Shown here: positions 33,047-34,951 of the stretch, one piece after another
How the letters are laid out: every line of letters begins with the position of its first letter
Numbering within the stretch: the first letter of the stretch is position 1
Origin: Gammaproteobacteria bacterium
GTDB taxonomy: Bacteria > Pseudomonadota > Gammaproteobacteria > Ga0077554 > Ga007554
Direction: 5' to 3'
Assembly (NCBI GenBank): GCA_021731145.1
Contig: JAKFXX010000018.1
Coordinates: 1 to 34,951, forward strand
DNA: 34,951 nt
Notes under the pieces: generated by a model
Told to the model about the DNA's origin: nothing
The model's input: the letters and a program-made list of their open reading frames with translations, nothing else
The model's database searches: none
Program-made: the position numbers and the translations under genes

Positions 33047-34366
33047 TCACTAGCGTCCGGTTAAAAGCCGAACAAATTTAGTTGGTTAGCGAAGTCGGTT
33101 TGTTCTGGAATGTACCCACTGCCCGCGAAGGCTTGAGATAGCTGGGTTTTCTCAAAAACAGAGACCGACAAAATCTGTATCAAAGTGTAGAGCGAGGCAT
33201 CAATTTGAAGCTCCTTTTTGACAATGGCAATCAGCACGTAGGTAGCGACGGCGCACCAGATTTGCGTCTTCACGGCATTCTCGCTGTTGCCGATGAAACG
33301 TTTGATGCGCAGATGCTGCTTGATCCACTTGAAGAACAACTCGACTTGCCAGCGGCTCTTGTAAAGCGCGGGCAAAGCAGTGTTGTTGGTCAGAAACACC
33401 AATGTCTTGCCGGTTTCCGGGTCTTTGAAGCGAATGCGTCTGAGCTGCTCGGGATAGTTCTGCGAAACATAAAACCCGTCCAACGCGATGCGCTGGTCGC
33501 AAATAATTCCGGTACTCCGGTCGGTCGGCATCGAGTACACCCTGTGCGCATTCATGCCGCGCTTGGCTCGGGTCACGAAGAACGTTCCCGCTTGGTGGAG
33601 TGCGAACAACCGACCAAAGTCGAGATAGCCTCGATCCATCACATAGAACGCGCCGGCCTCGATGGGCAACATATCCAGCACGTTGACATCGCCCATCTTG
33701 CCGTCCGAGATATGGATGAAAGAGGGGATGTTGCCGCGCAGATCCAGCAGGGTGTGAAGCTTCACGGCCGCCTTGGTGGAACGAAACGGCGCCCATGGAA
33801 AAAGAGACAGGCACAAGTCGATGGTCGTGGCATCCAGGGCGTAGACCGTGTGGGCGAGATCGATGCCGAAACCCTCGTTGCAATACAGTTTGCGCGCACG
33901 CCGGATAAGCACCGCCGCCAATTCTTCCCATATGTGCCAATCGCGACCTTCGTTGGCATCGGCCAGCGTCGAGCGCCTGACTGGCGAGCGAAAGCCCATC
34001 CCGTACAGCTTCTTCTGGTTGGCCTGCAAACAAATTTCGATATCGCGCAGACTCTCGCGGGAAGTCAGTTGCGCGAAGGCCATGACGCGGAATTGCTCGG
34101 TACAACTCAAGGTGCGCACGCCGGAATCGCCGCCATAACGCGCCACGATTCTCGCAAAGCTGGTCCATGGCACAAACTCCATGAGTTGCGCGAACAACGT
34201 CTTGCCCAAGTTCATAGTTCACCTCCAGAGAAATCGATCTCTGGAAGTTACTCGAATTTGAATGTGAGAAATCCGCTTTCAAATCGGCACCAAAATATTT
34301 GCTCTGCAACCCGCATTAATACTGGGTTTCATGCTGTGAATACCCAATTTAACCGGACACTAGTGA
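33047..34366 (-). mobile_element. Complete IS4-family insertion sequence, about 1.32 kb
   Basis: The left end reads TCACTAGCGTCCGGTTAAA and the right end, reverse-complemented, TCACTAGTGTCCGGTTAAA, with one mismatch over 19 bp. The direct repeat ATTTCTA flanks the element on both sides (33040-33046 and 34367-34373), consistent with a 7-bp target duplication; 9 bp with one mismatch is also possible. The intact ends and duplication indicate a simple, fairly recent insertion into the AT-rich stretch after pgi. It holds one transposase gene. Confidence 0.9.
33061..34215 (-). CDS. IS4-family DDE transposase
   Basis: The 384-residue protein catalyses cut-and-paste movement of the element. The acidic triad is visible as D128 in YALDATTIDL, D194 in VMDRGYLDF and E292 within the YREK signature Y285-x2-R288-x3-E292-x6-K299, diagnostic for IS4. 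The N-terminal region (QFRVMAFAQLTSRESLRDIE, then MGFRSPVRRSTLADANEGRD) matches a large group of proteobacterial IS4 transposases. The reading frame is intact. The start is ATG with GGAGGTG upstream. Confidence 0.95.
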   Translation of the reverse strand: MNLGKTLFAQLMEFVPWTSFARIVARYGGDSGVRTLSCTEQFRVMAFAQLTSRESLRDIEICLQANQKKLYGMGFRSPVRRSTLADANEGRDWHIWEELAAVLIRRARKLYCNEGFGIDLAHTVYALDATTIDLCLSLFPWAPFRSTKAAVKLHTLLDLRGNIPSFIHISDGKMGDVNVLDMLPIEAGAFYVMDRGYLDFGRLFALHQAGTFFVTRAKRGMNAHRVYSMPTDRSTGIICDQRIALDGFYVSQNYPEQLRRIRFKDPETGKTLVFLTNNTALPALYKSRWQVELFFKWIKQHLRIKRFIGNSENAVKTQIWCAVATYVLIAIVKKELQIDASLYTLIQILSVSVFEKTQLSQAFAGSGYIPEQTDFANQLNLFGF

Positions 34367-34438
34367 ATTTCTATATATGCTAATTATATATCTATATGTA
34401 TAAACAGTTTCTATATTTGGAAATGATGTCTACTTTTA

Positions 34439-34536
34439 GTTAGGCCTCTCTGAAAAGAGCAGTCGTTTTTCGAAGTGTGGTTACACCCGCAGGCCAGAGC
34501 AAGAACACCTGAAAGTGCTTGCTTCGTTGCTTGCCG
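34439..34536 (+). repeat. 98-bp direct repeat, copy 1 (5' end of cassette 1)
   Basis: Beginning exactly at GTTAGGC, this 98-bp stretch recurs at 34854-34951 with only two mismatches (34473 and 34474). Sequence upstream of GTTAGGC differs between copies, so the repeat starts at the recombination point. The second copy is cut by the window edge. Confidence 0.95.
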
Positions 34537-34854
34537 ATGTGAGGAGAAGCATCATCCCTCACCCTGCTCATAATGAAAGAGATCGGCTCACGGGCAAGTG
34601 CAGTGGTCGCTGGCAGGCTTCACTCCACCCCATAGTAAGTCGTTCCTGGCCACGCATCGAGGACCATTAAATGCAAGGAAAAATCGGGGCTTTTTTCTTT
34701 GGCGCGCTGGTACTAATATAGTGCTCAGAGCACATCAGGCCTAACACGTCATTCAAGAGGGACACGCCTTGGCGAGGCATTTTCAGGTGATGGGTTTCAT
34801 CAGCGCAGGGGCGTTGTTCGGGCTTCATCGTTGGCGTGCCCCTTAATTCTCACG
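34440..34854 (+). mobile_element. Integron-type gene cassette
   Basis: The 415-bp segment between two GTTAGGC core sites has the layout of an integron cassette: a body (34446-34738) followed by an attC site. No intI gene lies to its left, where it would be expected, so this is an integrase-less array or one whose integrase is elsewhere. The body contains no conventional ORF. One frame is open from 34440 to TAA 34668-34670 (EQEHLKVLASLLADVRRS and onward) but has no ATG and only an internal GTG, so coding is doubtful. Confidence 0.7.
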
Positions 34855-34860
34855 TTAGGC
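34739..34860 (+). other. attC recombination site (integron)
   Basis: R'' GCCTAAC (34739-34745) and R' GTTAGGC (34854-34860) are complementary. Inside them ATTCAAGAGGGACACGCC pairs with the reverse complement of GGCGTGCCCCTTAATT, leaving an unpaired spacer (ACGTC versus GTGAG) and one extra-helical purine. This is the folded bottom-strand architecture recognised by IntI. At 122 bp it is in the normal size range. Confidence 0.8.
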
Positions 34861-34951
34861 CTCTCTGAAAAGAGCAGTCGTTTTTCGGTGTGTGGTTACA
34901 CCCGCAGGCCAGAGCAAGAACACCTGAAAGTGCTTGCTTCGTTGCTTGCCG
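34854..34951 (+). repeat. 98-bp direct repeat, copy 2 (5' end of cassette 2)
   Basis: This is the second copy of the cassette start, offset by 415 bp from copy 1 and running off the window end. It shows that the next cassette begins with nearly the same body, so the array is probably a tandem of related cassettes. Confidence 0.9.

Follow-up and report, generated by a model that had tools for sequence, protein, structure and literature searches.

The window analysed here (34,951 nt) is one whole contig, C31, of the draft assembly G000 from a member of the Gammaproteobacteria, and its right end carries an integron-like cassette array, with no integrase gene on the contig. Integrons typically have one attI site, close to the integrase (PMC9024848), and a cluster of attC sites lacking an integron integrase is termed CALIN (PMC9024848). 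The question raised by this locus is what kind of array it is. The first-pass annotation offered three readings, namely a CALIN-type array, a chromosomal integron that lost its integrase, and cassette insertion at a secondary site. It is proposed here, with a probability of about 0.68, that the array belongs to a chromosomal integron with dispersed attI platforms, which a single integrase (IntI) would serve in trans. Among the relatives compared, G001 and G003 belong to the same genus as G000, and G005 belongs to another genus; G001, G005, and G006 are MAGs. The features discussed below are listed in Table 1.

Table 1. Features of the window (contig C31 of G000) and of related loci. L numbers denote loci.
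Feature	Location	Strand	Basis or remarks
pgi	C31 31291-32940	+	Pfam PGI, E 4e-252; chromosomal gene at the left flank
Left part of attI leader	C31 32953-33039	+	Homology to G005:C96; decayed end of gene X and AT-rich DNA
Insertion sequence (IS)	C31 33040-34362	-	Sequence and Pfam; interrupts the attI leader
IS transposase	C31 33061-34215	-	Pfam DUF4372/DDE_Tnp_1
Right part of attI leader	C31 34363-34423	+	AT-rich; common to G005:C96
attI core	C31 34424-34444	+	L-like box GTCTAC, R box GTTAGGC; 1 mismatch in 19; profile R2
Shared 98-bp cassette start, copy 1	C31 34439-34536	+	
Cassette 1	C31 34440-34854	+	415 bp; GTTAGGC core sites at both ends
attC of cassette 1	C31 34739-34860	+	140 bits, covariance model R1
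Cassette 2 start (98-bp start, copy 2)	C31 34854-34951	+	Cut by contig end
Relatives of the 98-bp start	L074 13361-13460, 13939-14032; L072 10533-10625; L082 7613-7707		
Ectopic attI, G000	C11 (L109 5171-5302), C38 (L110 4728-4859), C12		Profile, E below 1e-4
Ectopic attI, G001	C60		Profile, E below 1e-4
Ectopic attI, G004	C15		Profile, E below 1e-4
Ectopic attI, G005	C129		Profile, E below 1e-4
Ectopic attI, G006	C84, C19, C73, C2, C12 (L190, oriented about 3639)		Profile, E below 1e-4
Ectopic attI, G007	C34		Profile, E below 1e-4
Lone attC-like sites, G000	C20 (L014 7816-7933), C9 (L016 8542-8664), C3 (L017 8846-8952), C1 (L018 8479-8574)		No attI
Lone full-length attC, G003	C9 123086-123205 (L192 5087-5206)		132 bits
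Palindromic MITE-like repeat, G006	C19 52187-52323; C73 28027 onwards		

The cassette array

The attC site proposed for cassette 1 is real. It is bordered by GCCTAAC at 34739 and GTTAGGC at 34854-34860, both within complementary 27-nt ends, and it is recovered with 140 bits (E 1.7e-42) by a covariance model built from 29 sites of G000 and its relatives, the window site being among the 29. Since BLAST alone detects 84-96% identical attC sites, both spaced along a large integron in G003 and elsewhere in G000, the kinship of the window attC is independent of this model. The G003 integron comprises about 29 attC matches on one contig stretch. In known integrons, the recombining form of attC is the folded bottom strand, and the bottom strand of the window site folds as DNA at -18 kcal/mol (z -2.2). 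The array thus has attC sites with paired ends, as a complete integron does, and the attC family is uniform in G000 and its genus, as in a sedentary chromosomal integron. A regular-expression scan for attC found the window site, the sites on contig C2, and one candidate on C20 without support from the other searches.

The two successive cassettes, which had been noted to share their first 98 bp from the core site onwards, do so with 98% identity (two mismatches), and both copies open with GTTAGGC. No convincing reading frame occurs in cassette 1. The contig stops inside cassette 2, and one complete attC is visible before that point, the minimum for a CALIN being two by the IntegronFinder 2 default. 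The array presumably goes on past the contig end, and contigs C2 and C41, which carry cassette ends, are candidate continuations.

The 98-bp start represents a family of its own: starts that are 73-76% identical lie directly behind attC in G002, G003, and G004, and two successive cassettes in G003 carry a start of this type. It was considered as a coding element and as an RNA element. No frame is kept in the relatives and the covariation term of the consensus fold is near zero, and it is therefore left as a conserved non-coding start.

The left flank and an attI core

In the first-pass annotation, pgi and an IS were described at the place where attI and intI would be expected. Both are confirmed by Pfam, and intI is indeed absent from the window (no TIGR02249 match on C31), but attI is not, as an attI core stands at the head of the array. 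The IS has inverted copies of CTAGYGTCCGGTTAAA at both of its ends. Rfam searches of the window and of 34300-34951 gave two tRNAs and otherwise chance matches; in the latter interval, nothing resembling a promoter or terminator was detected. Downstream of pgi, neither attI nor cassettes were found in the relatives compared, which have other DNA there instead.

The attI adjacent to intI in the relatives reads TTTTAGGTATTTTATTGGTGTCTACTTTTA^GTTAG, and the bases before the first cassette of the window read GATGTCTACTTTTA^GTTAG. In comparison with the attI beside intI in G001 and G003, the window core shows 1 mismatch in 19; on the left of the crossover, which lies between G34439 and T34440, 13 of 14 bases agree with the family attI. 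An attI therefore heads the array, as in a complete integron. This attI may be weak, because it retains the core only (about 13 nt left of the crossover) and has none of the repeats of the intI-adjacent attI. Further upstream, the window departs from the family attI and resembles contig C96 of G005 instead: identity is 81% in the 70 bp preceding the crossover, and 74% over 172 bp with both IS flanks taken together.

The integron integrase of the genome

A search of the genome for intI revealed one full-length integron integrase, which is located on contig C30 and hence outside the window contig. The protein has 338 aa without stops, scores 492 bits against TIGR02249 (cut-off 265), keeps the catalytic residues R154, R288, H311, and Y320, and is 88-94% identical to the integrases of G001, G002, G005, and G006. 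The suggestion that the integron had lost its integrase is therefore wrong at the genome level. The gene adjoins recG, likewise in G001-G004 and G007. Behind the same intI, the genomes G001, G002, and G003 have attI and then a cassette array of the window's attC type. In G000, the attI beside intI breaks off after the first 51 model positions, its crossover half being gone; beyond it lie DNA with a degenerate transposase (a degenerate IS) and then cysE. No attC was found beside intI on C30, and no large array stands behind intI in G000.

Integrase and array, which adjoin each other in a complete integron, are thus found on different contigs (C30 and C31). In formal terms the array resembles a CALIN, as attC without an adjoining integrase on C31; the attI core heading the array and the intact intI elsewhere set it apart. 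An inversion between two IS that split attI from intI was also considered and was rejected, because the left half of the attI beside intI is still present on C30 and the leader of the window attI is a different one.

Ectopic attI copies and probable cassette exchange

With the attI profile, 12 longer ectopic attI copies (E below 1e-4) were detected in six genomes of the family, and no match below E 0.003 was found outside the family. In the copies examined, the intI 5'/attI side is represented by about 90 to 361 bp. Where the contig is long enough, their left flanks are other genes, and binning of a second intact integron therefore does not explain them. Those on G000:C12, G006:C2, G006:C12, and G007:C34 look degenerate. 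Behind the ectopic attI on G006:C84 there are nine attC matches (two full-length), away from the G006 intI, which has its own attI on C57. An antitoxin/ParE-like pair lies directly behind the attI on G006:C19, and FRG and GmrSD-like genes directly behind that on G006:C73.

The attIs on G000:C11 and G001:C60 lie behind the same upstream gene and therefore represent one inherited locus; to the left of the crossover they are 86% alike over 70 bp, whereas their right sides show no likeness. Three other pairs (C31/G005:C96, G006:C19/C73, and G006:C57/C84) are 83-97% alike left of the crossover, and their right sides yielded no match by BLAST and nothing that exceeded the maximum of the shuffles. 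Paired copies agree up to the G of G^TT and diverge after it. G005 has two near-identical attIs at whose GTTA two contigs terminate exactly, a pattern expected when an assembly graph forks at the crossover. Such junctions, alike on the left and unlike on the right, are consistent with what cassette capture at ectopic attI sites would predict. Since the left sides are kept and the right sides differ, exchange appears to have continued after the attI copies arose.

In the proposed scheme of dispersed platforms, the window end would be the head of a cassette array on an ectopic attI. IntI, from the single intact gene beside recG, would act on it in trans, pairing the folded bottom strand of attC with the double-stranded attI, and the cassettes would have been inserted at G^TT (34439/34440). 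Several attI copies are present at separate loci of G000, and more of them in its family. IntI is presumably expressed, and it presumably also acts on the window attI (34424-34444), with which the junction comparisons are in agreement. A more specific version has about an even chance of being right: a distributed integron, in which one integrase serves several inherited attI platforms at separate chromosomal loci, each platform exchanging cassettes on its own, and in which the G000 integrase, without its own crossover half, is confined to remote attIs.

The rival that survives best, although it is unlikely, regards the array as the decaying CALIN of an old second integron whose intI was lost, so that the attI core would be a fossil and recombination would have ended. 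CALINs are often interpreted as degraded integrons (PMC9024848); several of the ectopic attI copies are degenerate, and the lengths of the intI 5' end that they retain vary, as decay leaves them. However, an intact IntI of the same lineage is present in the genome, and exchange took place after the copies arose, which leaves room for a halt in G000.

Two observations on single copies may be added. The attIs on C11 and C38 of G000 have unlike left flanks and share the same 127 bp rightward to the contig ends, a stretch with no third copy in the G000 assembly; it may be a single cassette present at both attIs, or else an insertion element with attI as its target. The degenerate attI-like sequence on G006:C12 (27.8 bits) lies upstream of cas1/cas3-like genes, which may be a coincidence.

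Chance insertion and assembly artefact as improbable alternatives

It is highly improbable that IntI inserted the cassettes at a random secondary site (attG) by pgi and that the likeness to attI is due to chance. Cassettes off the integron platform are also what characterizes the attG insertions of Loot et al. 2024, as cited in PMC12444791; according to that citation, attG sites are neither attI nor attC, whereas an attI-like core stands exactly at the first cassette boundary of the window. Lone attC sites without attI do occur in G000 (on C20, C9, C3, and C1), and secondary insertion therefore probably takes place in this genome. Nevertheless, none of 200,000 shuffles of the local sequence came within one mismatch of the attI core, and the leader and core are common to another genus (G005). 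In about 230 kb of G000, on both strands, matches with at most four mismatches are otherwise confined to the C11 and C38 attI copies, and the next-best unrelated match has 5 mismatches. Profile R2, which was built from 12 attI sites with the window's excluded, matches at 34422-34444, although the score of 15 bits is modest (E 0.003 for 199 kb and 0.046 for the genome). The likeness of the core therefore speaks for an attI, located in trans to its integrase, at the head of the array rather than for a random secondary site, and the latter reading of the first-pass annotation is disfavoured.

The lone attC-like sites of G000 lie beside small toxin-antitoxin-like gene pairs and are candidates for attG-type insertions. 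In G003, a lone full-length attC is located about 85 kb from the main integron.

The least probable of all is an assembly or binning artefact, in which the array would truly adjoin intI: arrays break assemblies, draft genomes inflate CALIN and In0 counts (PMC9024848), and the contig ends within the array, but the left flank is continuous with pgi, the attI side of C30 is continuous via the degenerate transposase to cysE, and the independent assembly G005 has the same leader and attI with different cassettes.

Relation to known systems and significance

Like a CALIN, the window array consists of attC without an adjoining intI and is in principle mobilisable in trans (PMC9024848; for Xanthomonas, PMC12444791); here, however, an attI core heads the array and the matching IntI is intact elsewhere, and CALIN definitions ignore attI. 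With sedentary chromosomal integrons it shares the uniform attC family, the recG-linked intI, and the large array seen in G003, but attI and array lie away from intI, and intI is without the crossover half of its own attI. A prophage of Shewanella sp. has two attI-headed arrays (an integron and a CALIN) and one integrase; that case is a single prophage, whereas several chromosomal loci in several genomes, with some positions shared, are involved here. DeltaattI-type cassettes of mobile integrons keep 8-12 nt of attI, and their recombination with IntI1 has been demonstrated (PMC12901181). They resemble the window site in having short attI remnants and differ in occurring in class 1 and 2 arrays instead of at chromosomal loci away from the integron.

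In the open-licence literature, no account was found of several attI-headed arrays that share a chromosome and lie in trans to a single integrase, and the Shewanella prophage was the only case found of several, second, duplicated, or orphan attI sites. The dispersed attI-headed chromosomal arrays would thus extend the CALIN, Shewanella, and DeltaattI precedents, with a trans activity that is putative.

Arrays away from intI are currently read as degraded integrons or attG insertions. If remote attI copies still capture cassettes, part of the "integrase-less" arrays would be live capture sites, and several loci of one cell could take up cassettes. Since IntegronFinder recognises no attI other than that of class 1, such a pattern would be missed by standard tools. 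With an attI profile specific to the clade, it can be tested for in any group, such as the Xanthomonas CALINs at conserved positions, which were remarked to be unlike the broad spread of attG insertions (PMC12444791).

Gene X and the origin of the attI copies

With regard to the origin of the window attI, one possibility, compatible with the scheme of dispersed platforms and somewhat short of an even chance, is that gene X was a DeltaattI-type cassette with the window attI as its 3' end; on insertion in the chromosome it would have carried a short attI along, onto which further cassettes were stacked. The G005:C96 leader is preceded by an intact gene X (116 aa), while the window retains only the end of this gene, directly behind pgi; the attI core stands behind gene X in G005 and behind what is left of this gene in the window. 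Gene X adjoins varied chromosomal genes (pgi, hda, and xth), and the length of attI kept left of the crossover (about 13 nt) is close to the 8-12 nt of DeltaattI cassettes (PMC12901181). In G002, the initial 82 codons of gene X lead into a cassette-like tail that has an attC. On the other hand, neither attI nor attC was found upstream of gene X, and the copies that hold as much as 361 bp from the intI/attI side are left unexplained, so that these longer copies need another route.

The G002 tail is found on contig C52 (L181, L184), where it follows the first 82 codons of gene X. Its attC is short and of another type, and an exonuclease III gene adjoins; no attI was seen at this cassette array headed by gene X.

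The other route considered is duplication. On G006:C19 and G006:C73, the same junction is present between attI and a repeat that occurs some 40 times, and the composite was therefore duplicated as a unit in G006. Both the DeltaattI-type cassette and duplication are candidate routes. The repeat itself is palindromic and MITE-like, with some 40 further places in G006 and fewer in G000, G001, and G005, and another copy of it lies near intI on G006:C57.
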